Positions 6,669-32,899 of a stretch of DNA of 32,899 nucleotides are shown here, in pieces. Every line of letters begins with the position of its first letter. Positions within the stretch are counted from its first letter, which is position 1. The notes under the pieces are model-generated. The model had not been told where the DNA came from. It ran no database searches and saw only the letters and a program-made list of their open reading frames with translations. The stretch comes from a virus, in the IMG/VR virus record IMGVR_UViG_3300048033_001020, positions 1-32,899 of that record. One strand, written 5' to 3'. A program made the translations under genes and the position numbers.

Positions 6669-6908
6669 ATGATACTAAGAGAACTTTTTTACTTTGATAA
6701 AGCTACGTTAGAAATGACAGACGATGGAAGATATTCGCCTGAGAATGATTCTGATGTTGTTGAACAAGGTGACACACGAAAAACTAGATTAACACTAGAA
6801 CAAATTAATCAACTTCGTGTCGCTTCTGATTTACATGAACAAGAAAAAGAAGCAGAACTAGAGTTTGTTAGACAAATGTATGGTGTACCTGCTCAGCCAG
6901 GTATGTAA
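6669..6908 (+). CDS. Small conserved head protein in the gp67 position
   Basis: This 79-residue charged protein lies directly between the portal and the prohead core genes. That is the place of gp67 (PIP) in T4 and of a conserved small protein in T4-like cyanophages. The sequence shows an N-terminal MILRELFYFDKATLE segment, an acidic centre, then a DTRKTRLTLEQINQLR helix and a C-terminal EFVRQMYG motif. I recall similar sequences from marine T4-like phages as conserved virion or head proteins, but not a proven function. AAGGA at 6653-6657 lies 11 nt before the start. The stop overlaps the next start as TAATG, so the two genes are likely translationally coupled. It is probably a core or portal-associated assembly factor, by position only. 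Confidence 0.75.
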   Translation: MILRELFYFDKATLEMTDDGRYSPENDSDVVEQGDTRKTRLTLEQINQLRVASDLHEQEKEAELEFVRQMYGVPAQPGM

Positions 6909-7507
6909 TGATATCCTTTGTTCTAGGTAACGGAAAATCAAGAAAACAATTTGACATAAAGCATTATAGAAGTTATGGAAACATATACGGATGCAATGCA
7001 ATATATCGCGACGAACAAGTTGATTATCTAATTGCTGTTGATCCTCCAATGGCACAAGAAATAATTGACAATAATGCACACCTTACTACTAAATTCTATA
7101 CTAGAGAACACAAACGTTTTAAAGGAATAGACAATATTAACTATCCTAGTAAAAGTTTAGGATGGTCAAGCGGACCAACAGCACTGTGGATTGCTAGTAG
7201 TAATAACCCTAAAGTTATATTCATTGCAGGTTTTGATTTCGCCAGCTCGGATGAAAAACTAAATAACATATACGGAAGTACACAGAACTATAAACAGGCA
7301 GACAGTCCGGCTACTTACTTTGGTAATTGGATTAAACAAACAGAACTAATTATACGAGACAATCCAGGCATTCAATATTACCGAATTACTACTGAAGAAT
7401 ATAAATTTTCTCCCACTAACTATTACAAATATAAGAATTTTTCTAATATAAGTTATGAGAAAATGAATGAAAAGCTTAAAACCTTCCGTTTTGAGCCTAT
7501 TTCGTAG
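6908..7507 (+). CDS. GT42/DUF115-like Rossmann protein, putative glycosyltransferase
   Basis: This 199-residue protein has the pattern of GT42 sialyltransferases and related DUF115-type proteins. It has a first beta strand ending in GNGKSR (residues 7-12), then GCNAIYRD (28-35) and a following strand LIAVDPPM (41-48). It also has SSGPTALWIASS (87-98), followed by a strand ending in AGFDF (107-111). In GT42 enzymes the GNGPS-like loop binds the CMP-sugar, and the region near CN also lines the active site. The C-terminal third is Tyr/Lys-rich and less conserved-looking. The start overlaps the previous stop (TAATG). Being inside the capsid-assembly block suggests that it modifies a virion protein or acts as a binding protein. 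Enzymatic activity is inferred from motifs only, and it could be a non-catalytic relative. Confidence 0.65.
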   Translation: MISFVLGNGKSRKQFDIKHYRSYGNIYGCNAIYRDEQVDYLIAVDPPMAQEIIDNNAHLTTKFYTREHKRFKGIDNINYPSKSLGWSSGPTALWIASSNNPKVIFIAGFDFASSDEKLNNIYGSTQNYKQADSPATYFGNWIKQTELIIRDNPGIQYYRITTEEYKFSPTNYYKYKNFSNISYEKMNEKLKTFRFEPIS

Positions 7508-17941: not shown

Positions 17942-20900
17942 ATGGCAAATAAAATACTACACAAACGAAATAATGTCCAAGGACAAGCACCAACAGCAGA
18001 GCAATTAGACTTAGGTGAAATTGCAATTAATACTGCCGATGGGAAGATGTTTATTAAAAAATCCGATGGCACTATTCAAGATGTAAGTAAAGAAATATTT
18101 AAAGGCGATACTAGAGTAGTAGTTAATGACGAAGGAAATGGCGTTGTTACTATGTTAGTTGACGGTGTAGAAAAACTACGTGTTGACGGAACTCAAGTAA
18201 GTATATCTGATGATTTAGAAATAGATAATCAAGGATCAATTAAACTTAAAGAACTGGGAGCATTTGGCAATGACTCAGTTAACCTTAAAGCTCCGTCGGA
18301 GCTAAGTGATAGTTACGATATTATACTGCCAGCATCTGATGCTAAAAAAGGACAAATTTTACAAAACGTAGGATTTGGACAAACGCAATGGAGTGATCCA
18401 GGTTCACTAGGTGGTAACAGAATTTACGTTAGTGCAGAGTACGGCGACGATACAAATGACGGACGCACTGGCGCTGTTAAAACTATTAAACGTGCTGCAC
18501 AAATTGCTTCAGATGGTATCTTTACACCGGTTGTTGATCCTGGTCAGTCAGCTTACGATGCTAAAGATTTAATAGAAGCTAACAGAGCATTCTTAGAAGA
18601 AGAAGTTGTACAGTTTAGTACTAATGCATTTAATATTACATATGATGCAGCAAAGTGTGAACGTGATGTAGGTTTAATTATTGATGCAATTGAGAACGAT
18701 ATGCGCCTTGGCGGCGACTCTGCATCAACAGTTGCTGGCGCACTTTATTCACTAGAAAGTTCTGCATTAGTTAAACAATCACAAGACGTTGCTACAGAAT
18801 ACGGCTTAAGAAGAATTAGAGATATTGTTAAAGAAGTTGTAACTAACTCTGTTATTACTGACACAACTCAAGTAGGCGCAGTACAACAATTCGACGGCAC
18901 GAAAACTGCAACAGCAAGTGAAGCATTATTAGTTGAAGGATTAGGACAAAAAGTAGTTGACTTTTATGTTGATGGCGTCGGCGATGGTCCAAATGAAACT
19001 AAAACTTTAGACACTGGCTTACTTAATGCAGAAACACTAATCGACAATAACAAAAACTTTATTCAAGACGAAGTTATTGCATTCTTAAATCAAAAGTATA
19101 GCGGCTTTGCATATGACGAAGCTAAGTGTGCTAGAGATACTGGGCTACTTATTGATGCTGCAAACTTTGATTTACTTTATAGTGGTAATGCTGAATCTCA
19201 TTATGCTGGCATAACTTATTTAAATGCTACAGCTTCAGCAGTTAGAGATTCGCAAAAACTAGAAACACTTGCAGGTATTGATTATGCAAGAACAATTGCT
19301 AAAAAGGTTGTACTAGGTGAACCTGTAAAGTATACATATCAAACAAATGAAGTACAAAACACTGCTTTACCGGCTGGTACGCAAACTGAAGCAGATAAAG
19401 TTGAAACAAACCTTAGTATTGTATACGGATTATTAAATGCTGGTATAGGAACTGCTAACGGTGTAATAACAACTGATACTGCAAAACTAAATTCAGACAC
19501 ACTAATTGAAAACAACTACGACTTTATTAAAGAAGAAGTCATTGGATACTTGACAGCAACATATGCTGGTTACACTTATGATCAAAATAAGTGTCGTAGA
19601 GATGTTGGCTTAATTCTTGATGCAGTGCGTTATGACTTAACACACGGCGGAAACAACGAAAGTATTCAAGCAGCACTATCTTACTATCGTTGGGTTGCAA
19701 GTACAACTATTAATCAACAACTAGGCGAAACACTTGCAGGTATTGATTATGCACTAGACCTAGCTGCATTAGTAGTACTAAATCAAGCACCTGCACAAAG
19801 TTATCAAGGTGTATTTGCACAGTTTACTGATACAGGCAATGCAGGCGATGCTGCTTCGCAGACTATCATTAACGGATTAAACGCATTAATTGCTGACATT
19901 ATTACAGACGGCGACAGTGCATCTATTGGATTAGACATCGATCCTAATAACGCTGTACCAAGTACTTTACAAGATGTTATTAATGCAAACGCAATACTAG
20001 AAGCTAACAAAGACTTTATTAAAGCTGAAACAGTTGCATTTATTACAGAAACATTTGGCAACTTTGATTATGACCCAGTTACTTGTTCTAGAGACGTAGG
20101 TCTTATTGTAGACGCAGTAAAATATGACGTAGAACACGGCGGCGATGCAGAAAGTATCTTTGCAGGTATTTCTTACTACAACAATGTTAGTGCAGGCACT
20201 GGAGAAATTACAGGAGATGCAGTTGACGTATTAAGAGCGCAATTGCAGCCAACAATTGATGCACTAGAATATACTAGAGACTTGCTAACTAAAGTAGTAC
20301 TACAGTCTACAATTGATAATCCTTACCAAACAGGATCTACACAAACACTTGACGCTGCTAACCCAACTACAAATGCAGTAGCAAATACAGTTTATAATCG
20401 TGCTAATACAGTAGTAACAATACTTAAAAACGGTTTAGGCGTACAGAACAGCTTTACAAAAACAGCAAATGTTCCGGCACTTAACGCTGAAAGTTTGTTA
20501 CAACAGAACACTACATTTATCCAAGAAGAAGTAGTTGCATACACTACTGATCAGTTCCCAGGCTTTACTTATGACGCAAATTCATGTAAACGTGATGTTG
20601 CGCTAATACTTGATGCTATTGAATATGACTTAACACACGGCGGTAATACTAATACTATTGCAGCAGGTGTTGCATATTATAAACAAGCAGCAGCATTAGT
20701 AGTCAGTGGACAGCGTACAGAAACACTTGCAGGCCTTGCACACTTTAAAGACATTGCGCAAAAAATTGTTCGTAACGTAACAATTGACACAACATACTCT
20801 TCAGAAGCACAAGTATTTGACGGAGCAAATCCAAGTGATGTAACTAGTGCAAACACAATAGGTTCACTACTTGACATTATTATTGATATTGTTGATGACG

Positions 20901-23900
20901 GATTAAGTACACAAGTAAACGTTATAGCTAACGGTGCTTTAACAACTGATCAAGATATACTAGATGCAGGTGCATTAATTACTTCTAATAAAGCGTTTAT
21001 CCAGGCTGAAACAGTTGCTTACGTAGATGCAAGTTGGATTAACTTCTCTACAGGTTATAATCAAAACTTGTGCAGACGTGACACTGGTTTAATACTTGAT
21101 GCAATTAACTTCGACTTAACATACGGCGGAAATTCTAACTCAGTAACAGCAGCAATTGCATACTTTAAGCAAAGCAGTGCATTTGCACTACAACGACAGT
21201 TAGTACAAACTGTTGACGGTATTATGCATGCTGTTAAGCTAGCACAACAGGTTGTCGAAAACTATGATGTAACTAGCTGGCAGATTGGCTCTACACAAAC
21301 ACTTGACGTTCAAAATCCAGGAAGTGCAGAAGCAGTTACTAAGATTGCTGAACTTGGAGTAGTAATTGAAGATATTATTACAGACGGGGCAAGCGCAGAA
21401 GCAGGTATTTCTATATCTAGAAATACACTAATACCAACAACTAATACAAACATTACAAATGCAGCAGACCTAGTTGCACTTAACAAAGCATTTATACAAG
21501 CTGAAGTTGTTAGCTACATTAACACATACTTTACAAACTTTACATATGATGTAGAGTTCTGTCGTAGAGACGTAGGACTGTTTATTGATGCCATTACATA
21601 TGATTTAATCTACGGTGGTAACTCACGTGCAATTGAAGCAGGTGAAGCATACTACATTGGTAATACTAGTGTTATTCAAGGACAGGAATTCCAAACAGTC
21701 TTAGCTAACTTATACTTTAAGAAACTAGTTAACAACATATTACAAAACGTTGTAAACGATCGTTTGTACCAAAACATAACAGGACAAACAGTTGATTTTA
21801 CTAAAACTGTAGAAGGTCCTACACTAGGAATTGTTGAATCAGAATTTGATATTATTGTTGATATTATCGAAAACGGACCTAATTCTGTAAATATTCCAAC
21901 ACAAGTTGATCCGGCATTTAATATTGCATATACAACTATTATGGTATCAACTGGCGAATACAAAGAAGACAACCCAGTTATTCTTCCAGACTATGTATCT
22001 GTTGTTGGCGACAACTTGCGTACAACTATTATTCGTCCACTAAATGCTAACCAAGACATCTTCCGTATTCGTAACGGTTGTTACTTACTAGGTGTTACAT
22101 TTAAAGACGGACTAGATGCGTTTAACGTGCCGAGCTTTACAGGTAGATTCTGTACAGCTTTCGATGATCCGTTTGATACAGGTGTTGATCGTACAGGTTA
22201 TGTAGGACTAAGAGAGCGTCCACTTATTACACAATCGCCATACGTGCAGAACGTATCTATTATTTCGTTCTTAGGACTAAGTGGTTGTTTAGTAGACGGT
22301 TCAAAAGTTATTACACCAAACATTCCGCGCTTTGCAATTGAAGCAGAAAATCCAGTATTTGGCGAAACACCTGAACAAGGTAAGTCAATGGTTGCTAACG
22401 CATATACTATGCTATCATTTGGTGGTGTTGGTTGGCGTCTAACTAACGATGCATACGCACAGATCGTTTCCTGTTTCCAAATCTTCTTAGGCAACGGTTG
22501 TTGGTGTCAGTCAGGTGCTTACCTTTCTGTTACTAACTCTGCTACTAACTTTGGTTTATACGCACTGCGTTCATCAGGTTACTCTGCTAACAGCTTTGTG
22601 TTTGACCGTGGTGTTATTGCTGAAGCTGGCGCACAAGCGTCACAGCAAAAACTAATTACCGTTGGTACTAAGCGTACTCCGATTAACCAGTTTGTTATCA
22701 GACTTTATGACGATGACGAGTTTAACAACTTAGCTAACGATATTACAAACAGCTTTAAAACTGTACCTGCTATACTAGAATTTAATGCAGGTGAGATTGG
22801 AGAGCTATACGGTGACGATGCAATTTACCCTGTTGACTCAGTTACAGCATCAACATTTACTATCCAAGTTGGTCCAGGTAAAAATCTAGGAACTTATGTA
22901 TCCGGCGGTACGGTTGATATTAATGGTGCTAATACTCCTGAGAATGTTGTATCAGCAGTTTATGATAATGTAGCAGGAACTTTAGAAATTGAAGTAGCTA
23001 CACTGCCTGTAGTACTTGATAATGTAACTATTACAGAGATTGAATTTGACGGAACTAATTATCCTGTATATGAAGCAGGATCATTAGATGTAGATGCAAA
23101 CACAATTACTATTCCAGGACACGGATTAGTTACAGGTGATGCTGTAACTTATCGTAGAAACGGTAACGTTGAGATCCCAGGTATTGCTGACCAAGGCTTG
23201 TATTATGTAGAAGTGCTAACAGCAGAAATTATTAGACTGTATCAAGATGATTCAAGAGGATTTGTTGCTGATATTATTGAAGTTTCTAGTGGTACACATA
23301 CTATTGAAACACAAACTGAAGAATTCTTTATTGATGACATTCTTCTTGATGCAGACGGTAATAAGCAAACACACAACAAGTATCAAGTACTAACATTAGC
23401 ACCTGGATCATATGCATTTGCACCAGGTGATACTATTGAAGCAACTACTGGAATTTATAGAAACAAGGCATATGTTTATGAATACAATTCAGTTACTAGA
23501 CAGCTAACAGTATCTGTAGAAAAAGCAGAAAACCAAGGCTCACTAACAAGAATCTTCTTTGATGCTACAAGTATTATTGACAGAGATAGTGCTGCGATTC
23601 CTAACAGTAATATTGCTGTTACAGGATTTACGTCAAGAACAGACTTGTTCACAGCAGAGTTTACAATTGATCCAACTATTGTTGGTGGTGTATTTACTAA
23701 CACTGGTAATTTACCAGGAACGTTTATACGTTTCCATAGACCAAGTATTGTTAACAGTTCATCTCACACTTGGGAATATGCAGGTTCGGGTACAGACTAT
23801 AACGCTCTACCACAGAACGGCGGCATTACAAGAGAAGAATACGAACAGTTTAGTGACTTACCAGGACGTGTTTACTCTTCAGGTACAAACGAACTTGGTG

Positions 23901-26900
23901 ACTTTAAAGTTGGTGACTTCATTGTTGCAGAAAACAGAACTGGTAACATTACGTTTAAAAACACAGTTACAGTTGGTGAACTATCAGCACTGAAACTTGC
24001 TGTTTCGGATGTTGTTATTGAAGCAATTTCGACTGATCCAGGACTAGGTGACAATGAACCAGGCGGCGCAACTGATACACGATTAATTACACAGAACGCT
24101 GCACGTAGCTTCCTAGCAAACAGACTAGGCGACTTTATTGATAAGAGTGTATCTACTAACTCAGTTGCTGGTGCAGTTCCACAGATGAACGCACAGGGCT
24201 TGTTGAACTCAGATATTATTCCTGCAACACGTAACTTTAGTTTGTATGTAACAGATCAAAAGTTTGGTAGATTTAATCTAACTGATGATATTCCACCACA
24301 AGAACCATTACAGGGCGACATTGCGCAAGAAAGATATGAGCGTGTGTTCTTTACACTTAGTCAGCCAGTTGCATTTAGCGAAGGTGACATTATAGTCGAA
24401 GCAAATACAGGTGCAACTGCTATTGTTGATGAAGACAACGGCGGCGCTGCTACTGCGTACTTTGCAAATATTGTTGGAACATTTAGTAACAACATTAGTG
24501 CAAACACCCTGAGTATTAACGGACAAAACACTACAGCATATATTACTAACACAGGCGGAACTGATGTGCGTGATATCCAGTACACTATGGTACAAGATAG
24601 TAGTAGCCAGTTCTTAAGATACTTACCAGCTGGAAGTACATTTACAGTTGGAACTACACTTACAGCAGCTAACTCTAAAACACAAGGTACCGTAACAGGA
24701 CAAGTAGAAGGTGTTGCTCTAGCAGTTGACATTGCTAATATTAGTAATGGTGCAGGGTATGTACCGACAACAGGATCACAAACATACACCCAAGTTCCTT
24801 TAATTAGTAACACAGGTACAGGTACAGGCGCTATTGCAGACATTACTGTATCTAACGGACAGGTAACTAACGTTGACTTAACAAGAGGCGGTAGTGGTTA
24901 TGCAGTGGGAGACACTGTTACGGCTGCAACAGGCAACTTAGGCGGACAAAACTCACAAGACTTCCAAGTTAACATTAACGCAGTTGATAACAGAGTGTTT
25001 GTAGATTTGATTGCTGGTAAGTTTATTGCTACAAGTACTTCGAACGAATACACAGAAAGTACCGTAGCTCCAGTAACTTCAGTTGCGTTAGGTAATACAA
25101 CACTAAGTGCATTTAATGCAGATACAACTGCTAATGGCGGTAACGTTGATTATCCTAACTCACAGATAATAATTAACTCGCACATATTTGACAACGGTGA
25201 TGTTGTTAACTATGCAAGTTCTCCAAACCCGGCAATAGGCGGATTACTACAAGGCGAAAGTTATTTTGTTAAAGTTATTGATTCAAATACTATTGAGTTA
25301 TACAACAGATATGATCTTGATGCAGCACAAAAAGTAACATTTACTTCGAGTTCAACTGGCACACATGCGTTTATTATTAAACATGTAGACACACGTAAAA
25401 ATCGTATATATGCACCAGATCACGGATATACTAGCGGACAAGCTTTCCGCTTTGTAAGTGCAAACCCTCCAACAGGAATGGTAAGTGGTGGTTACTACTA
25501 CGCTGGTACAACAAGTCAGAACACATTCTCAGTACACGAATTCCTACAAGATGCAGTAAGCAGTGTTAATGGTGTTACAGCAAATGAAATTAACTTTATA
25601 CAAACAGGTAGTGGTAGTGCTGACTTTGTAAGACAAGATGTTACAATATATGGAGAAGTTAATACTTCAGGCGAAACTGAAACTAACTGGGCATTGACTG
25701 GTAGTGCTAACGTTGATGCAAGTAACATTGTATCAGGTGTTATTAGTACTTCAAGACTTGCAGCAGTAGGAACTGCTAATAGTAACACTTACTTAAAAGG
25801 TGATAGTAGTTGGGATCTTGCAACACGTACAGTACGTGTAGCACTTGATTCTCCACTTAACATTACAGGCGACTTTTATACTAGTGGCGGCCAAAACTTC
25901 TACTTTAAAGATACACAGTTTGATATTGACAGAACTGATGATACTTTAGGTAATCAAAGTTTTACAAACATTGGTGTTGCTGCATTTAGTAAAGCACAGT
26001 TTAATGTTAACTCAGGCGAAGTAGAACTAAAAGCAGGCGTACTTGATGCAGGTACACTAGACGGACTAGATAGTCAGTACTTCCTAGATCCAGGTAACTT
26101 ACTAAATCCTGTACCAGTTAACAGAGGTGGTACAGCAATTGATCAGTATATACCGGGCGATATGCTATATGCAACATCACCGACAACACTAAACAGATTG
26201 CCAATTGGTGATCAAGGTGCTGTTATGGTTGTTGACGAGCTAGGTAATCCGACTTGGTCAAATGACGTTGCACCGTTTGTAGAAGATACAAACAACTTTG
26301 GTGTTTCGAGACCATTAGAAATACGACATGACGTTACAAACACACCAGCGGTAGGCATTGGTGTAGGTATGCAGTTCCAAGTTGAAACAGCTAACAACAA
26401 CAGAGAAGTTGGTGGTACTATTGATGCTGCTGCAACGGATGTAACATTTGGTTCAGAAGACTTTAGCTTCAAGTTTAACTTAATGTCAGCAGGCTTCTTG
26501 CAAGAACGAGCAGTATTAGATTCCATTGGTAACATGTCAATTGACGGCGACTTTACAATCCAAGGCGGCGATCTTAAAACAACAAAAACTAGTGCTTCGA
26601 TTTATGATACTACTGTGTCTTCGATGAGTATTGGTAGAGCTGCTTCTGCAATTACAATTGGTGCAGATAAAACTGGTGAAATGCGTATTAGAAATAAAAC
26701 GCTAGTAGTAGGCGGTGACGCAGTTGAAACTGCTCCAGTAGATGCTATAATTAAAGCACCTAATGCACTAGGTACTAACAAGCAAGGACCAGACTTAACA
26801 ATCAAAGGTGGTGCATCAACTGGTAACGGTGTGGCAGGGTCAGTATTTATTGATACTGGTGCATCTGGAAATTCAGGTAGTACTTCAAATACACAAGTTA

Positions 26901-29713
26901 ACCGTCTTGAAGTAACGGGCAATGATGCGCATACACCGTCATTATTATTAGGTAGAAGTTCACAGAGTACACAGCAAGTAGGTACAGTTGGCGTTAAAGG
27001 TCCTATTACTGGACAGTTTAACATTAATGGTGCATTACTTGAGTTAACTCCAGGACCGGGTACAGGTTCAGGACAAGGTGCTGCTGTAAACATTTACGGT
27101 TCAGACAGCATTGGTTCAGGCAGTGGTATACAAGTAAGCGAACTAGTTGCTAGCTTCTCAGGCGATGCTATTAGACTAAACAAAGATGTTATTACACAAG
27201 CTAATAGCTTAGGAACTAACCAAGCAGCATTTGACTTGTTAAACGACACAGTTACAACACTTAACATTGGTGGTGCTGCAACTGCTATTGACATTGGTGC
27301 ATCAAGTGGTTACTTGCACGTTAACTCCGCTGACCAATCAACAAGTACTACAACAGGTGCTTTACGTGTAGACGGTGGTGGTAGCTTTGGTAAAAACTTA
27401 TATGTTGGTGGTAACTTAGTTGCTGCTGAACTTACACTTACTGGTGCTATTGACGGTAACAGTTATAATGTTAGTGGTAACGAAGTTATTGACACTAACA
27501 GACGCTTTATCTCAAGCGGTGGCACAACAGGCGAACTTGCTAAAGTACATGCTATTAGCTTTGACTGGGACGGAAACTACGGTAACTTAGGCGGATATGT
27601 AAATCATGGTATTAGTTCAAGAGGCGAAACATGGGGAGCAGGAGATGATATTAGTATTAACTCTTACCACAACGTTAACGTAAGACTTGACACTAACTCA
27701 AACAACAGTGCTGCAACTACATACTTCCGTGTAAACAATGACGTAAGCCAAACAAATGGTAACATTGTACTAAGTGCAAGAGGCGATGGTAAAGTTGGTA
27801 TTAACAAAGATCCAAGCGGTACTTACAACTTAGATGTTAACGGTAGCTTCAATGCTACAACTGGTTACATTAACGGTGGTGCTATTTGGACTGCATCAAA
27901 TGACGGAGATGGTTCAGGACTAAACGCAGACTTGCTAGACGGCTTACATGCATCAAGCTTCCTGCGTGTTGATACTGGTGCAGCATTTAGTGGTGGTGTA
28001 TTTAAAATTAGTGCTCCTGCAACTACTATTCAAAATACTGGCGAAGTTAATACACTCCAGCTATACCAAGGCAACGGCGCAAACGCATACGATGCATTCT
28101 TAACATTCCATATTGGCGGTGACTATGCTGTACACTTTGGTTTAGACGGAAGTACAAACGACTTAGCATACGGTGGCTGGTCAGCAGGCGCAGTAGCACA
28201 TAAAGTATGGCATGCTGGTAACGATGGTTCAGGCAGTGGACTAGATGCAGACTTGTTAGACGGACAGGATAGTGCATTCTTCCGTAATGCAAGTAACATT
28301 AACGCTGGTACATTCCCAGATAGATTTAGTAGTAGTACACGTTACAACATTGGCTTTATTGACGGTTATGGCGGCGACAACTACGATAAATTACGTGTTT
28401 GGAACAGTGGTTCATACACAATTGGTATGCACAGTGGTCAAACAATGGGCTGGCTAAACGACTATGCAATGACGTTTACTATGAACAATGACACTGATCG
28501 TGGCTGGAAGTGGAGACATGATGGCGACGGCGTTGCAACTGGTGCTATGGCACTTACAACAGATGGACGTTTAACAGTTAAACAGTTTATCTCAGTAGGT
28601 AACCAAACAACACGCTACTTGAGAGAACCAACAGGTAACTACGGTTCAATTCAGGTTAGTGGCAGCGGCTACGGTAACTGGGAAGGCTTTAGCATCGACG
28701 GTCGTGCAGTATTCATGCATGACGGCGGTAGTGAAACAGGTATTTACAACGATGTTAACAACCATTGGCTAGTGCGTTCAGATCATGGCGGACGTACAGG
28801 ACTATATCACAACAACAGTGAAAAGATCAACACACGTTCAAATGGTGCTGATATTAATGGTGAATTGTATGTAAACAACTGGGTACGTATTGAGTCAGAC
28901 TCGGGTATTTACTGGCAAGCAGGTTCATATGCTGGCTGGCACATTTATCCAAACGCAACTAATGCAATGGCGTTCCGTTCTGCAAACAGTGGATCATGTG
29001 AACTGCGTCTAAACAACAGTTCAAACACTATTTACGGTAGACTGTATGCAGACGATGCATCGCAAGGCTTCCTAAACGAAGACGGTAACTGGTCACTACG
29101 TTCATATAATAACGACGGTGTATCACCGGGTATAAGATTCTACGAAACAAGTGGAAACACTAGCTGGACAGGTAACCCAGGTAACGATATTGGTAAAATT
29201 GAATACCACGCAGATAGAATGTACATTGTTGCTGGTGCTAACTCAAACAGAGTTGTACAGTTTAGACGAGACGGTACTGATGTATCATACGTTGATAACA
29301 GTGGTGTGTACCAAGGTACAGCAGCAAGTGCTAACTGGGCTGACTTGGCAGAGAAATACTTAGCTGATGCAGTATATGCACACGGTACAGTTCTTGCAAT
29401 GGGCGGTGATGCTGAAGTAACAGAATACAAGCCAGGCATGAAACTTGCAGGTGTTGTATCTACATTACCAGGCTTGATGATGAACCAAACAGATGAAAAC
29501 AGAGATGATCCGATGTGGCCATTTGTTGCACTAAAAGGTCGTGTTCCATGTAAGATTAACGGAACTGCTAAAAAAGGACAGTTTATTATTGCTGATCAAG
29601 ACGGTGCAGGCCGTGCTGTAGATGAGCTAAGTACTATAGCAGAATATACATTACTAATCGGAACTGCAATTAGTGATTGTGATGGAAACGGTACTGTAGA
29701 GGTTAAGGTATAA
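17942..29713 (+). CDS. Giant 3923-residue tail fibre protein
   Basis: This fibre takes up over a third of the window. Residues 1-55 (LDLGEIAINTADGKMFIK and flanks) resemble the N-terminal attachment domain seen in phage fibres and Mtd-like receptor-binding proteins. A beta-helix start (RIYVSAEYGDDTNDGRTG, about 159-176) is followed by seven helical repeats of about 160 residues (about 205-1320). The beta-helix then resumes at VSTGEYKEDNPVILPDYVSV and continues to about 1570. Mixed beta regions follow. DADLLDG-type fibre repeats occur near 2701, 3326 and 3433, and a GALRVDGG repeat near 3140. The last ~125 residues (from WADLAEKYLADAVY) form a compact domain common at fibre C termini. It may assist folding, as intramolecular chaperone domains do, but no protease triad can be assigned. 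AGGA at 17929-17932 is 9 nt from the ATG. It is likely host-recognition apparatus. Confidence 0.9.
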   Translation: MANKILHKRNNVQGQAPTAEQLDLGEIAINTADGKMFIKKSDGTIQDVSKEIFKGDTRVVVNDEGNGVVTMLVDGVEKLRVDGTQVSISDDLEIDNQGSIKLKELGAFGNDSVNLKAPSELSDSYDIILPASDAKKGQILQNVGFGQTQWSDPGSLGGNRIYVSAEYGDDTNDGRTGAVKTIKRAAQIASDGIFTPVVDPGQSAYDAKDLIEANRAFLEEEVVQFSTNAFNITYDAAKCERDVGLIIDAIENDMRLGGDSASTVAGALYSLESSALVKQSQDVATEYGLRRIRDIVKEVVTNSVITDTTQVGAVQQFDGTKTATASEALLVEGLGQKVVDFYVDGVGDGPNETKTLDTGLLNAETLIDNNKNFIQDEVIAFLNQKYSGFAYDEAKCARDTGLLIDAANFDLLYSGNAESHYAGITYLNATASAVRDSQKLETLAGIDYARTIAKKVVLGEPVKYTYQTNEVQNTALPAGTQTEADKVETNLSIVYGLLNAGIGTANGVITTDTAKLNSDTLIENNYDFIKEEVIGYLTATYAGYTYDQNKCRRDVGLILDAVRYDLTHGGNNESIQAALSYYRWVASTTINQQLGETLAGIDYALDLAALVVLNQAPAQSYQGVFAQFTDTGNAGDAASQTIINGLNALIADIITDGDSASIGLDIDPNNAVPSTLQDVINANAILEANKDFIKAETVAFITETFGNFDYDPVTCSRDVGLIVDAVKYDVEHGGDAESIFAGISYYNNVSAGTGEITGDAVDVLRAQLQPTIDALEYTRDLLTKVVLQSTIDNPYQTGSTQTLDAANPTTNAVANTVYNRANTVVTILKNGLGVQNSFTKTANVPALNAESLLQQNTTFIQEEVVAYTTDQFPGFTYDANSCKRDVALILDAIEYDLTHGGNTNTIAAGVAYYKQAAALVVSGQRTETLAGLAHFKDIAQKIVRNVTIDTTYSSEAQVFDGANPSDVTSANTIGSLLDIIIDIVDDGLSTQVNVIANGALTTDQDILDAGALITSNKAFIQAETVAYVDASWINFSTGYNQNLCRRDTGLILDAINFDLTYGGNSNSVTAAIAYFKQSSAFALQRQLVQTVDGIMHAVKLAQQVVENYDVTSWQIGSTQTLDVQNPGSAEAVTKIAELGVVIEDIITDGASAEAGISISRNTLIPTTNTNITNAADLVALNKAFIQAEVVSYINTYFTNFTYDVEFCRRDVGLFIDAITYDLIYGGNSRAIEAGEAYYIGNTSVIQGQEFQTVLANLYFKKLVNNILQNVVNDRLYQNITGQTVDFTKTVEGPTLGIVESEFDIIVDIIENGPNSVNIPTQVDPAFNIAYTTIMVSTGEYKEDNPVILPDYVSVVGDNLRTTIIRPLNANQDIFRIRNGCYLLGVTFKDGLDAFNVPSFTGRFCTAFDDPFDTGVDRTGYVGLRERPLITQSPYVQNVSIISFLGLSGCLVDGSKVITPNIPRFAIEAENPVFGETPEQGKSMVANAYTMLSFGGVGWRLTNDAYAQIVSCFQIFLGNGCWCQSGAYLSVTNSATNFGLYALRSSGYSANSFVFDRGVIAEAGAQASQQKLITVGTKRTPINQFVIRLYDDDEFNNLANDITNSFKTVPAILEFNAGEIGELYGDDAIYPVDSVTASTFTIQVGPGKNLGTYVSGGTVDINGANTPENVVSAVYDNVAGTLEIEVATLPVVLDNVTITEIEFDGTNYPVYEAGSLDVDANTITIPGHGLVTGDAVTYRRNGNVEIPGIADQGLYYVEVLTAEIIRLYQDDSRGFVADIIEVSSGTHTIETQTEEFFIDDILLDADGNKQTHNKYQVLTLAPGSYAFAPGDTIEATTGIYRNKAYVYEYNSVTRQLTVSVEKAENQGSLTRIFFDATSIIDRDSAAIPNSNIAVTGFTSRTDLFTAEFTIDPTIVGGVFTNTGNLPGTFIRFHRPSIVNSSSHTWEYAGSGTDYNALPQNGGITREEYEQFSDLPGRVYSSGTNELGDFKVGDFIVAENRTGNITFKNTVTVGELSALKLAVSDVVIEAISTDPGLGDNEPGGATDTRLITQNAARSFLANRLGDFIDKSVSTNSVAGAVPQMNAQGLLNSDIIPATRNFSLYVTDQKFGRFNLTDDIPPQEPLQGDIAQERYERVFFTLSQPVAFSEGDIIVEANTGATAIVDEDNGGAATAYFANIVGTFSNNISANTLSINGQNTTAYITNTGGTDVRDIQYTMVQDSSSQFLRYLPAGSTFTVGTTLTAANSKTQGTVTGQVEGVALAVDIANISNGAGYVPTTGSQTYTQVPLISNTGTGTGAIADITVSNGQVTNVDLTRGGSGYAVGDTVTAATGNLGGQNSQDFQVNINAVDNRVFVDLIAGKFIATSTSNEYTESTVAPVTSVALGNTTLSAFNADTTANGGNVDYPNSQIIINSHIFDNGDVVNYASSPNPAIGGLLQGESYFVKVIDSNTIELYNRYDLDAAQKVTFTSSSTGTHAFIIKHVDTRKNRIYAPDHGYTSGQAFRFVSANPPTGMVSGGYYYAGTTSQNTFSVHEFLQDAVSSVNGVTANEINFIQTGSGSADFVRQDVTIYGEVNTSGETETNWALTGSANVDASNIVSGVISTSRLAAVGTANSNTYLKGDSSWDLATRTVRVALDSPLNITGDFYTSGGQNFYFKDTQFDIDRTDDTLGNQSFTNIGVAAFSKAQFNVNSGEVELKAGVLDAGTLDGLDSQYFLDPGNLLNPVPVNRGGTAIDQYIPGDMLYATSPTTLNRLPIGDQGAVMVVDELGNPTWSNDVAPFVEDTNNFGVSRPLEIRHDVTNTPAVGIGVGMQFQVETANNNREVGGTIDAAATDVTFGSEDFSFKFNLMSAGFLQERAVLDSIGNMSIDGDFTIQGGDLKTTKTSASIYDTTVSSMSIGRAASAITIGADKTGEMRIRNKTLVVGGDAVETAPVDAIIKAPNALGTNKQGPDLTIKGGASTGNGVAGSVFIDTGASGNSGSTSNTQVNRLEVTGNDAHTPSLLLGRSSQSTQQVGTVGVKGPITGQFNINGALLELTPGPGTGSGQGAAVNIYGSDSIGSGSGIQVSELVASFSGDAIRLNKDVITQANSLGTNQAAFDLLNDTVTTLNIGGAATAIDIGASSGYLHVNSADQSTSTTTGALRVDGGGSFGKNLYVGGNLVAAELTLTGAIDGNSYNVSGNEVIDTNRRFISSGGTTGELAKVHAISFDWDGNYGNLGGYVNHGISSRGETWGAGDDISINSYHNVNVRLDTNSNNSAATTYFRVNNDVSQTNGNIVLSARGDGKVGINKDPSGTYNLDVNGSFNATTGYINGGAIWTASNDGDGSGLNADLLDGLHASSFLRVDTGAAFSGGVFKISAPATTIQNTGEVNTLQLYQGNGANAYDAFLTFHIGGDYAVHFGLDGSTNDLAYGGWSAGAVAHKVWHAGNDGSGSGLDADLLDGQDSAFFRNASNINAGTFPDRFSSSTRYNIGFIDGYGGDNYDKLRVWNSGSYTIGMHSGQTMGWLNDYAMTFTMNNDTDRGWKWRHDGDGVATGAMALTTDGRLTVKQFISVGNQTTRYLREPTGNYGSIQVSGSGYGNWEGFSIDGRAVFMHDGGSETGIYNDVNNHWLVRSDHGGRTGLYHNNSEKINTRSNGADINGELYVNNWVRIESDSGIYWQAGSYAGWHIYPNATNAMAFRSANSGSCELRLNNSSNTIYGRLYADDASQGFLNEDGNWSLRSYNNDGVSPGIRFYETSGNTSWTGNPGNDIGKIEYHADRMYIVAGANSNRVVQFRRDGTDVSYVDNSGVYQGTAASANWADLAEKYLADAVYAHGTVLAMGGDAEVTEYKPGMKLAGVVSTLPGLMMNQTDENRDDPMWPFVALKGRVPCKINGTAKKGQFIIADQDGAGRAVDELSTIAEYTLLIGTAISDCDGNGTVEVKV
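18560..21910 (+). repeat. Seven tandem ~160-residue repeats in the giant fibre
   Basis: Each unit contains a segment of the form KxFIxxExxxY...FxYDxxxCxRD(V/T)GL(I/L)(I/L)DAxxxDLxxGGN followed by a second helix with a variable loop. The single Cys of each unit is at residues 239, 396, 551, 715, 882, 1044 and 1207, giving periods of 155-167. The Cys and the following RD-x-x-L-x-x-DA are kept in all seven. The units are diverged at DNA level, so they are stable and not recent expansions. Confidence 0.85.
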
Positions 29714-29717
29714 TACT

Positions 29718-30092
29718 ATGGGCAATATGACAAGAGCATCGGCACGTGATTACTTTAGAGACCGTGCCGGCGCTCAGTTAAGAGGATTTGATAAAACTGT
29801 TAACGTTGCTGCCACGGTATACTATGCTGGTAATACTGCAAGTTATAATGCAACTACTGCATATGGCAATCGCCGATATGAGTATGTAAATGCTAATAGT
29901 ACCTTGTATGACGGCAATGTTTATCCAAATACAACACTAGTTGATGCTACACAGATGATAGATCAAGCATTAAGTGCAATTCAAAGAACTTGTGATCTAA
30001 TCGAAGGTAGATTAACTAATCAGTACTTTGACTTTAGAGTATGTCATGGCAGCTGTCATTACAGTTGTCACGGATCGAGAGGAAGAAGATAA
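29718..30092 (+). CDS. Small protein with C-terminal (CHxS)3-RGRR tail, copy 1
   Basis: This 124-residue protein is the first of two paralogs. The body (about 20-107) contains FDKTVN, VYYA, AYGNRRYEYVNA and IEGRLTNQYFDFR, all shared with copy 2. The last 16 residues are CHGSCHYSCHGSRGRR, three CHxS tetrapeptides followed by a basic tail. I do not recognise a named family. The tail resembles either a metal-binding site (HxC-rich, as in some fibre tips) or a core peptide modified by an enzyme. A radical SAM gene in the same operon points to modification; this is inference. AAGGT at 29705-29709 precedes the start, 4 nt after the giant fibre stop. The bases encoding RGRR also act as a ribosome binding site for the next gene, which overlaps as TAATG. 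Confidence 0.75.
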   Translation: MGNMTRASARDYFRDRAGAQLRGFDKTVNVAATVYYAGNTASYNATTAYGNRRYEYVNANSTLYDGNVYPNTTLVDATQMIDQALSAIQRTCDLIEGRLTNQYFDFRVCHGSCHYSCHGSRGRR

Positions 30093-30475
30093 TGGCAGGT
30101 TTAAGTCACGCACAATTAGAATCTCGTTATGTAAATGCAGCTTATGCAAGATTAAGAACATTTGATAAAACAGTTAACTTTGCAGCAAGCGTATACTATG
30201 CAAACGCAGGCGGCCAAGGCCAAGGCACTGCATATGGTAATCGTCGATATGAATATGTAAATGCAGGAACAGGCACATACTCAACAGGAGATATTCCCAA
30301 TAGAATCGGGGATAATAGTTTAATTGTAGCAAGTGATATACAAAACTTTGCAACAAATTGTATATCAAGAACAGTAAACCAAATCGAAGGTAGAATTACA
30401 AATAGCTACTTTGATTTTAGAATATGTCACAGCAGTTGTCACTATAGCTGCCACGGCTCAAGGGGAAGAAGATAA
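30092..30475 (+). CDS. Small protein with C-terminal (CHxS)3-RGRR tail, copy 2
   Basis: This 127-residue paralog of the preceding protein shares the FDKTVN, VYYA, AYGNRRYEYVNA and IEGR-x-TN-x-YFDFR blocks. It ends CHSSCHYSCHGSRGRR. Its tail codons differ from copy 1 at many synonymous positions while the residues are kept, so the tail is under selection. A longer open frame from 30041 exists, but ATG 30092 overlaps the previous stop (TAATG) and has GAGGAAG upstream, so that start is preferred. The N-terminal region differs most between the copies, suggesting different partners. Its stop overlaps the next start, again as TAATG. As for copy 1, the role may be a modified or metal-binding virion component; this is not proven. 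Confidence 0.75.
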   Translation: MAGLSHAQLESRYVNAAYARLRTFDKTVNFAASVYYANAGGQGQGTAYGNRRYEYVNAGTGTYSTGDIPNRIGDNSLIVASDIQNFATNCISRTVNQIEGRITNSYFDFRICHSSCHYSCHGSRGRR

Positions 30476-31533
30476 TGATTGGTGAAAGTTTTTATTATAT
30501 TAACAATAAAAAGTATATAGGAAAGTCGTCTGCAATGACATCTGCAATAGCTGAGAGTCCGTTTAATGGTGATCAGACACGCAAAATAAAAATTGTAACA
30601 CCAGATGAACATCTTCCTATTAAAGAATCGTATGTAACTATGTTACAAGAAGATTATCCAGCAGCAACTGAAGATTTAGTTGAGTTTGCACAATGGAACG
30701 AAGTAGATACGGTAGAATATCTAGGCAATAGTAATAAAGAATACTTGCTATTTGACGAAATACTTGACTTTCTTAAATATTATGCAAAGTATACTGCTTC
30801 GCTATTGCGAACTGCTACTAGTAAAGATGTAAAAGAAGTTACTAAAGATTTCTTAAAGTTAGTAACAACTAGAGACCAGTCGTATGCAACATTTGCAGAA
30901 TTTAATGACGGAAACATAGATGCAGTAGTTGAAGAAATATTTGCCGAAAATAACTTTTACCAATTCTCGTCGACACCAACAAGTAAGTGGTGGGGATATG
31001 ATATACTGTTCTTTATTAATGATAGATATAACAGAGATGAAACTTACGAAGAAATTAATTCTGTAACAAGCGCACACTTACGTGAGAAGTTTACAATACA
31101 TTCAGAAACAATGATTTTTGAAGTTATTGCAATGCTTCAAAGTAAAATTGGTTATATTAGTGTAATTAATAATATCATTGACTGGCTAAATGACAACGGA
31201 AATAGTACATATAACAAAGTGCAATTTATTAAAGATACATTCCAAAACAAAAACAGAATGATGGCACTATATTCTCTTAGAGATTTTTGGAACGAAGTTG
31301 GCAACAATGCTGAACTTATGAATCTTATTAATAATCACGAAGAATGGGAATACGAAGAAGTATATAAAGAGTTTGCTAAAACTATTCCTATTGTTGTACA
31401 AATCGCAGAAGGGGGCTTTAATTTTGCAAGTAATGAGCAACTGAGAGATGCGTGGAGCGAAGTAGAGTTTTTCTACAAGCGTAAAGCACGTATTCCTTAC
31501 TTGATATTTAAAGTAAAACCATTAGTGGAGTAA
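30475..31533 (+). CDS. Unknown 352-residue protein in the CHxS/radical SAM operon
   Basis: I do not recognise this protein. It is mostly helical and acidic, with many aromatic residues, and has no signal peptide or clear membrane segment. An N-terminal piece (about 1-40) has a short beta pattern. Residues 85-125 and 190-260 look like long helices. It starts by overlapping the CHxS copy 2 stop (TAATG) and ends 2 nt before the next gene, so it is translated as part of the operon. Its position between the putative substrates and the radical SAM gene suggests a partner, recognition or scaffold protein, but a separate tail-assembly role is equally possible. Confidence 0.7.
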   Translation: MIGESFYYINNKKYIGKSSAMTSAIAESPFNGDQTRKIKIVTPDEHLPIKESYVTMLQEDYPAATEDLVEFAQWNEVDTVEYLGNSNKEYLLFDEILDFLKYYAKYTASLLRTATSKDVKEVTKDFLKLVTTRDQSYATFAEFNDGNIDAVVEEIFAENNFYQFSSTPTSKWWGYDILFFINDRYNRDETYEEINSVTSAHLREKFTIHSETMIFEVIAMLQSKIGYISVINNIIDWLNDNGNSTYNKVQFIKDTFQNKNRMMALYSLRDFWNEVGNNAELMNLINNHEEWEYEEVYKEFAKTIPIVVQIAEGGFNFASNEQLRDAWSEVEFFYKRKARIPYLIFKVKPLVE

Positions 31534-31535
31534 AA

Positions 31536-32243
31536 ATGGAAAATCGTACGAGCTACACATTACCCTTAAATCCTGTAGATCTTGCAAGTATATACAAGAT
31601 TAAAGCAGATCAGGAAGATTATATTCTGCATGTCGATTACGAAGAATCTAAAAAGGTACTATCGGTAAAACATATCTTAGTATACATATCAAACACTAAC
31701 TTTAAAGTACAGTTTGATACTATTGATGCTGAGTTAATTAATGAATATATAAAGTGCGACTTCTTGGTAGAATGTCCCATTATAGCTCGCATAATAGCAG
31801 TTATTGCAAAAAGAAAGTTGAATTACGATTTTAATAATGTTGACGAAGCAATCAATGTTATATGGTCAAATGAAATGATAGATGCATATTTAGAAGAGAA
31901 CGGTGAATTATTTAACGATCTTCTAGATAAGATACAACACATTCCTTTATTTTGCATATCACAATCTACAAAGTATGATGATAAATTTAAAGAATTTGTT
32001 CCTGAGGATTTGGACTACACAGACGAAGAAACAAATATTGGACTAAATATTGTATATATTGCAACGTATGCATTAGACTTGTTGTATTTGTTAGGTAACA
32101 AATTTGGTCCGTGGCCGTCTAGTAACTTAAACAAGCGATTGTTTAATGATGTTAGTAAGTACAAAGGTTCCGACTTATATAATACTTTACTTAAACAAGG
32201 CGTTGCAACTAGTATGTTAGAACTATTTGAGGAAGAATCATAA
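31536..32243 (+). CDS. Unknown 235-residue protein in the CHxS/radical SAM operon
   Basis: I do not recognise this protein. It is acidic and rich in Ile, Asp and Asn. It has alternating beta-like segments in the first 75 residues and helices after that, including YIATYALDLLYLLG near residue 175, which is hydrophobic but short for a membrane span. GGAG at 31527-31530 lies 5 nt before the start. The stop overlaps the radical SAM start as TAATG, so expression of the two is probably coupled. The first 75 residues could be a small recognition domain of the kind used with radical SAM enzymes, but I see no specific signature. Confidence 0.7.
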   Translation: MENRTSYTLPLNPVDLASIYKIKADQEDYILHVDYEESKKVLSVKHILVYISNTNFKVQFDTIDAELINEYIKCDFLVECPIIARIIAVIAKRKLNYDFNNVDEAINVIWSNEMIDAYLEENGELFNDLLDKIQHIPLFCISQSTKYDDKFKEFVPEDLDYTDEETNIGLNIVYIATYALDLLYLLGNKFGPWPSSNLNKRLFNDVSKYKGSDLYNTLLKQGVATSMLELFEEES

Positions 32244-32899
32244 TGACAATGCAACAATCATATTGCAAACAAATGAAGTACAGTGGCCCTGAAAGTTTGC
32301 CTCCAAGCCTGGCACAAAAGTTTGATGTTCTTATCAACTTCGAAGGACTCACTGGTTGCGATCATGGTTGTGTTGGCTGTTTTGTGAATAAAAACCAAGA
32401 CGTTAGTGCAATGAATAGTATGCTAGAAACTGCACAAACACTAGCAGACGGAGTTAAACGTACAGGGTTAAACTTACGTGAATTTGTTATTGGGCCTACT
32501 GACTTTTTCTCTGCAGAGAATACTATTAAAGTTTTAGAACATCCAACTGTGCAAAACATTATGAGAGAGCATACTAAAGCACGTATTGCTACTCCAAGTA
32601 AAATTGACGAAGTAAGTATGGAAAAACTTCGTGATATATTCTCTATCTTAGACGATCCTAGCAAATATAGAGACGAAATGATTATTGAGTTTATTATGCC
32701 GATTGGTAATATTGATCGCATACTCAATGACGAAGATTACTTTAACGATATAAAAGCAAAGTTAGACTTTTTTGATAAAGAAACTCCTAAGAATATTGAC
32801 TGGAGTTGGACATTGCAAGCAAGTAATGTAATGCAAAAACATTTAACTAAAGAAAACTACAATAATTTACTATACAAGATTCTAAACGAATACGAAACT
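32243..32899 (+). CDS. Radical SAM enzyme (partial, runs off right edge)
   Basis: The open frame continues to the window end (219 codons, no stop). Residues 39-46 read CDHGCVGC, the canonical CxxxCxxC motif that binds the 4Fe-4S cluster used to cleave S-adenosylmethionine. It is followed by Phe, as usual. It is preceded by a beta strand (VLINFEG) ending just before the cluster loop, and followed by a strand and turn near VIGPTDFF (86-93) in the place of the GGE-like motif. ATG 32243 overlaps the previous stop, with GAGG at 32229-32232. The family beyond radical SAM cannot be told; any C-terminal SPASM or accessory domain would lie outside the window. The CxHxCxGCF pattern resembles NrdG (the anaerobic nucleotide reductase activase). 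The rest differs and the operon context argues against it. Confidence 0.85.
   Translation, partial: MTMQQSYCKQMKYSGPESLPPSLAQKFDVLINFEGLTGCDHGCVGCFVNKNQDVSAMNSMLETAQTLADGVKRTGLNLREFVIGPTDFFSAENTIKVLEHPTVQNIMREHTKARIATPSKIDEVSMEKLRDIFSILDDPSKYRDEMIIEFIMPIGNIDRILNDEDYFNDIKAKLDFFDKETPKNIDWSWTLQASNVMQKHLTKENYNNLLYKILNEYET

Follow-up and report, generated by a model that had tools for sequence, protein, structure and literature searches.

The DNA analysed here, the complete 32,899-base IMG/VR virus record IMGVR_UViG_3300048033_001020 (hereafter the window), ends in a five-gene operon that probably belongs to a module by which phages mature one of their virion proteins. In this module a short C-terminal tail of three Cys-His-x-Ser units followed by RGRR, (CHxS)3-RGRR, would be the substrate of radical S-adenosylmethionine (radical SAM) enzymes, a cupin and 2-oxoglutarate (2OG) oxygenases. 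The tail motif, its strict C-terminal place on proteins of several N-terminal clusters, its two-way co-occurrence with the enzymes, the gene order and the predicted enzyme families can be read from sequence; from these we infer that the tail is the substrate, what the partner protein Y does, in which order the steps run, and with what chemistry and biological purpose.

The five genes lie on the plus strand directly behind a giant tail-fibre gene, in the order T1, T2, X, Y, E1, with TAATG overlaps at 30092, 30475 and 32243 and a fourth junction (31533/31536) without overlap. T1, the proposed substrate (29718–30092, 124 residues), ends in CHGSCHYSCHGSRGRR-stop with its (CHxS)3-RGRR motif at 30042–30089, and its paralog T2 (30092–30475, 127 residues), which overlaps T1 by the first TAATG and is 54% identical to it, ends in CHSSCHYSCHGSRGRR-stop with the motif at 30425–30472. 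They are followed by a partner protein X (30475–31533, 352 residues), a near-universal partner Y (31536–32243, 235 residues; a relative of phrog_20767) and the radical SAM enzyme E1 (32243–32899), which is cut at residue 219 of about 393 by the record's own end. The predicted [4Fe-4S] motif of E1, CDHGCVGC (CxxxCxxC), lies at residues 39–46 (32357–32380), and relatives of about 393 residues have a C-x2-C-x5-C cysteine set close to the C terminus. The original prediction, made from the letters of the window, had described this packing behind the fibre with TAATG at three of four junctions, the paralogs with their repeat-bearing ends and the canonical radical SAM motif, and each is read directly in the sequence.

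Scanning IMG/VR with a degenerate DNA pattern for the repeat (CHxSCHxSCHxxRGR) returned at least 120 stretches from 119 contigs, a recurrence beyond chance because the probability of the pattern is about 6e-14 per position (uniform bases, our own arithmetic). Peptide patterns taken from the N-terminal and middle parts of T1 led to 11 IMG/VR loci, and the triple repeat and RGRR end the protein at all 11. The 148 distinct tailed proteins (T proteins), 120–300 residues long and of varied N-terminal type, form eight clusters when their N-terminal parts are compared by BLAST at an E value of 1e-3 (78, 61 and 4 members, and five singletons), and every protein ends at a stop after R-[G/S]-R-R with the triple repeat strictly C-terminal; the final Arg and the immediate stop are constant, though the pattern demanded neither. 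The motif is constant at the protein level, because synonymous codons vary freely at every fixed residue (for example, TGT/TGC 87/61, and six Ser codons). The main length variant (L118:7832-8515) has a far longer CHxS-like run, with blocks such as CHSSCHDSCHSNVV, before the usual RGRR. Across 257 billion bases of bacterial and archaeal genomes the repeat occurred in 12 stretches only, with radical SAM genes adjoining 11 of them, and several of the 12 may be phage contigs in metagenome bins. A tblastn search with a 25-residue tail, a query too short for a general scan, found three Burkholderia phages only. The C-terminal tryptic peptide of the tailed protein is ...VCHSSCHTSCHGSR, and its counterpart in Agrobacterium phage Atu_ph07 is ...VDFCHSSCHASCHNSR.

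Co-occurrence of enzyme and tail across phages, set beforehand as the test of the original prediction, held in both directions. Among the matches listed, radical SAM genes were found at 120 of 120 tail loci (108 by script, L088 and L127 by eye in the stored locus, and the other ten by a search of whole records that was positive in 15 of 15 records, those ten included), and phages with CHxS proteins and no radical SAM gene, the counter-case named in the prediction, were seen at none of them. In the opposite direction, 27 of the 32 records (25 kb or longer) selected through radical SAM family C alone carry the tail, with 0 for a reversed-pattern control, and in the remaining five the contig stops inside the operon, short of the tail's place. 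In a matched control of 28 records selected on the portal gene of the window, a single record had the E1 family, and that record also had the tails; the other 27 had neither. Among 50,697 named phage records, radical SAM A, radical SAM C and Y each matched the same seven records, representing six cultured phages (Burkholderia FLC6, FLC8 and SURPRISE13, Pseudomonas pPa_SNUABM_DT01, Agrobacterium Atu_ph07 and Sinorhizobium Phosso), all of which have the tail, as an RSRR variant in Atu_ph07 and Phosso. A plasmid search with radical SAM C returned only Pseudomonas proteins of about 25% identity, distant relatives that lie on megaplasmids (for example, NZ_CP127046.1 and NC_009444.1).

These counts bear on the idea that the radical SAM genes are auxiliary metabolic or DNA-repair genes lying near structural genes by chance. 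Such a view agrees with the published readings for pPa_SNUABM_DT01, where phage radical SAM enzymes were assigned to DNA repair and host metabolism (PMC8541153), and for Campylobacter phages (PMC2853527). It also agrees with how common other radical SAM genes are: the generic PF04055 domain occurs in 5 of 11 large portal relatives, so only families A to E are informative for linkage. We nevertheless regard it as extremely unlikely, as those portal relatives lack both the E1 family and the tail, and unrelated phages carry the linked families together with T and Y in a fixed order.

The full enzyme set cannot be demonstrated for the window phage because the record ends inside E1; it was read in the closest relative found, the 117,792-base contig G001, whose portal is 90% identical. 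There T1, T2, X, Y, E1, E2, E3, E4, E5 and radical SAM B follow in that order and, facing radical SAM B, stand a 2OG oxygenase, a JmjC-type cupin and radical SAMs A, C and D (types by Pfam), in total nine radical SAM genes, the cupin and the 2OG oxygenase. The proposal of a protein-modification system is supported in its link between enzyme and tail, by co-occurrence, but the system is far larger than the two tails and one radical SAM enzyme first described. E1 is one of five extra (E-type) radical SAMs typical of a subgroup with two T paralogs, to which X is also confined (42 loci), and Y is present at 126 loci. The module core comprises four radical SAM families, the JmjC-type cupin and Y, with 2OG oxygenases usual. 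Its order, cupin-A-T-Y-B-C-D, is found in the PhiKZ-related phages SURPRISE13 and pPa_SNUABM_DT01, in Atu_ph07, which has been described as close to Rak2-like phages, in Phosso and in marine contigs. All 12 single-tail loci that extend 9 kb or more downstream have Y, B, C and D there, and 11 of them also a 2OG oxygenase. Radical SAM C is 55–60% identical between a marine T4-like phage and jumbo phages, and the N-terminal parts of their T proteins belong to different clusters.

Several loci depart from this plan. One contig, G031 (L235, L236), has the module twice: once with two paralogs and once, separately, with a single tail and its own radical SAM A, Y, B and D. Another phage with the CHxS module, G037 (L232, contig 18001-37000), carries a second, different radical SAM cluster, which, inspected by eye, lies beside nucleotide-sugar-dehydrogenase-like and PP-loop/QueC-like genes, with no CHxS target seen in it. 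Two adjacent dihydrofolate-reductase genes, one of them a strong DHFR_1 match, stand inside the radical SAM cluster of Burkholderia jumbo phages (L001:13873-15050, L003:13783-14996) and could serve folate-dependent methylation or be unrelated to the module. Atu_ph07 gp164 (L148:15342-16055) looks like radical SAM D, and its annotated form is without the N-terminal CxxxCxxC part, as would follow from a misannotated start, a split gene or decay.

Fixed order and two-way linkage also have to be set against a simpler use of the tail, as an unmodified metal- or Fe-S-binding tip, with the enzymes directed at a metabolite or at some other component of the virion. In favour of such a tip, Cys and His bind metals well, phage spikes and fibres whose tips bind iron through histidine motifs are known, and no mass change of the tail has been observed. 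Plain metal binding, however, needs no two-way enzyme linkage in fixed order, and the constant Ser and the RGRR-stop are atypical of metal ligands, so that we consider an unmodified tip unlikely.

The enzymes are assigned to the radical SAM superfamily by CxxxCxxC in their N-terminal part and, for class C of G001, by a PF04055 match above cut-off. Alignments of A, B, C and D show invariant C-x2-C-x5-C sets near the C terminus (auxiliary-cluster cysteines), and class A scored above the cut-off of the SPASM/Twitch model TIGR04085 (31.9 and 29.3 against 27 bits), with class C at 19 bits. The nearest solved chains were 8vpo, 5wgg (which we take to be CteB) and the anaerobic sulfatase maturase 4k37 for radical SAM A, a sulfatase maturase matched along nearly the whole length for radical SAM C, and, by a weak match, 5v1q (presumably SuiB) for radical SAM D. 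Profiles of E1, B and Y found no solved relative, and none of the module's radical SAMs reached the cut-off of a curated radical SAM family. The cupin, which adjoins radical SAM A, reaches the cut-off of JmjC_2, a family that includes protein hydroxylases, in five phages, and 2OG-FeII_Oxy_5 scored above cut-off in G001 and SURPRISE13. AlphaFold2 predicted T1 as a helix, a beta-hairpin, a helix and a low-confidence C-terminal tail (predicted local distance difference test (pLDDT) 54 and 43 in the last blocks), and the T model (pLDDT 75) had no fold match with E < 0.01 in PDB or BFVD. X matched nothing in Pfam, PHROGs or NCBIfam, and Y nothing in Pfam or NCBIfam; the confident model of Y (pLDDT 92, predicted template modelling score 0.90) had no PDB match.

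So many tailoring enzymes gathered on one invariant motif would also suit a T protein that acts as a carrier, whose tail the radical SAMs convert into a cofactor-like group, to be released or put to catalytic use; radical SAM enzymes do build peptide-derived cofactors such as pyrroloquinoline quinone and mycofactocin. We hold this to be highly improbable, given that the motif sits on proteins of 120–300 residues and varied N-terminal type beside fibre genes and that, by the Atu_ph07 proteome paper discussed below, one such protein appears to be in the virion.

The T genes neighbour those of tail fibres or other structural parts of the virion, and their products are probably associated with the fibre or the baseplate. 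In the window, the fibre gene directly upstream of T1 (17942–29713, plus strand, 3923 residues) ends 4 bases before T1 starts. Its C-terminal domain (ADLAEKY...GRVP...KG) is found again in Atu_ph07, Phosso and G031, in fibre-like genes lying shortly upstream of the module, and is common to the five compared loci; the last 404 residues of the fibre gave a weak Peptidase_G2 match, below cut-off. In Atu_ph07 the tailed protein is gp170. Attai et al. (PMC6102473) place most virion proteins identified by mass spectrometry in clusters CDS (coding sequences) 31-76, 170-215 and 284-329, and the numbers given there (major head protein 215, head proteins 198 and 204, baseplate protein 181) fit the record annotation, so that CDS 170 is the tailed protein. 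It opens cluster 170-215 and therefore, as a boundary gene, should itself have been identified. The presence of the tailed protein in the virion is thus supported by one published proteome statement.

The recurring fibre-like neighbour suggests another arrangement, in which the tail is only a docking tag: the enzymes would attach to CHxS but modify some other partner, for instance the fibre at its C terminus. Three Cys-His-Ser units would be unusual as a tag, and Cys would be a common target residue of radical SAM enzymes, which makes docking alone very unlikely.

Under the maturation reading, which we prefer, the substrate would be the last 16 residues of T, the flexible (CHxS)3-RGRR tail, and before assembly Y (with X in the two-paralog subgroup) would present or hold T. 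The SPASM/Twitch-type radical SAMs A, B, C and D, here also E1 to E5, the JmjC-type cupin hydroxylase and the 2OG oxygenases would then act on the Cys/His/Ser units, and the Arg block might be modified too. Candidate chemistries are thioether, Cys-His or carbon-carbon crosslinks and oxidation; the product would be an end group, crosslinked or oxidised, that the particle displays and that would most likely serve adsorption or tip stability. Several points weigh against this reading. No modification has been observed so far, linkage is no proof that the enzymes act on the tail, and their targets could instead be the N-terminal part of T, the fibre or a small molecule carried by T. The contigs in the two-way test are related, and their counts are not independent events. 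The placing of gp170 in the virion derives from a cluster boundary in the text of the proteome paper, proteins of classes B and E, motif and cysteines apart, match database entries weakly at best, and Y has no matched fold. With less assurance than for the module itself, we favour on balance a fuller statement: that a dedicated multi-enzyme radical pathway of four core radical SAMs, up to five more and oxygenases gives a fibre-associated virion protein a non-standard chemical group at its exposed end, that the module moves among T4-like, PhiKZ-related and Rak2-like phages, and that the group serves attachment or particle stability.

Judged by family tests, the nearest system in logic is one to which the module does not belong: the His-Xaa-Ser (Hxs) system, whose target HxsA carries a repeated His-x-Ser motif. 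PMC9062424 cites Haft and Basu for HxsA/B/C/D; the likeness is a repeat-bearing target beside radical SAM maturases, whereas here the unit is Cys-His-x-Ser, nearly all proteins have three units and an RGRR end, and the carriers are phages. Scores were 21.5-33 bits for HxsB against a cut-off of 370 and 23.3 bits for HxsC against 267.9, radical SAMs A and C lying at 23-33 bits, and five tail proteins gave no NCBIfam match to an HxsA-type target. The radical SAM/SPASM maturases of ribosomally synthesized and post-translationally modified peptides (CteB, SuiB, DynA, DarE, PapB) are alike in superfamily, in auxiliary-cluster cysteines and in a target encoded next door, but the module's radical SAMs score far below their family cut-offs, the target is a probable structural protein of 120-300 residues, and at least four distinct radical SAMs would serve one motif. 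The original prediction had likened the operon to such peptide systems; the radical SAM enzyme beside a repeat-bearing target stands, but the locus looks like maturation of a probable virion protein and not like a gene cluster for a peptide natural product. Neither an export gene nor a peptidase was noticed among the operon's genes, though no search was aimed at either. Anaerobic sulfatase-maturating enzymes, which form formylglycine, rank among the solved structures closest to A and C, and CHxSR resembles CxPSR. A formylglycine target of the form (C/S)-x-(P/A)-x-R was rejected, as the +2 residue is Pro in 0 of 148 and Ala in 5 of 148 tails, and Arg follows the last CHxS repeat only. The JmjC_2 match in five phages recalls JmjC ribosomal oxygenases of the YcfD/MINA53 type, but the module cupins are much shorter (about 160-205 residues) and match over a short stretch only.

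Clustered radical SAM genes, five or eight, are also reported in the Campylobacter T4-like phages CP220 and CPt10 and in Aeromonas phage 332-Vera, numbers called highly unusual by the authors (PMC2853527, PMC12390700); compared by publication and not genome by genome, these phages differ in that no CHxS target is reported for them. Radical SAM, cupin and 2OG genes were listed separately by authors of other reports (PMC8066314, PMC11898562), and in the openly licensed literature we found no paper joining the CHxS tail to the enzymes. We file the module under radical SAM-target maturation with a new place of action.

As for the window phage itself, its T4-type major head and portal proteins and a T4 baseplate protein identify it, by sequence comparison, as a T4-like myovirus. 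The N-terminal part of its fibre (17942-29713) contains internal protein repeats in series (..CxRDVGLIxDAxxYDxxxGGN..), and a gene at 6908-7507 that resembles phrog_30607, of unknown function, has portal and prohead genes on either side, an odd position for a T4-like head module.

We know of no virus that finishes a structural protein by radical chemistry. The claim is testable now, existing virion mass spectra included, because cultured carriers exist. The enzyme set would be a source of new peptide-modifying catalysts whose target tag is short and portable. If the maturation reading is true, phages use radical chemistry to complete a structural protein, and the radical SAM gene clusters that several papers call unusual or file under metabolism would be directly explained.

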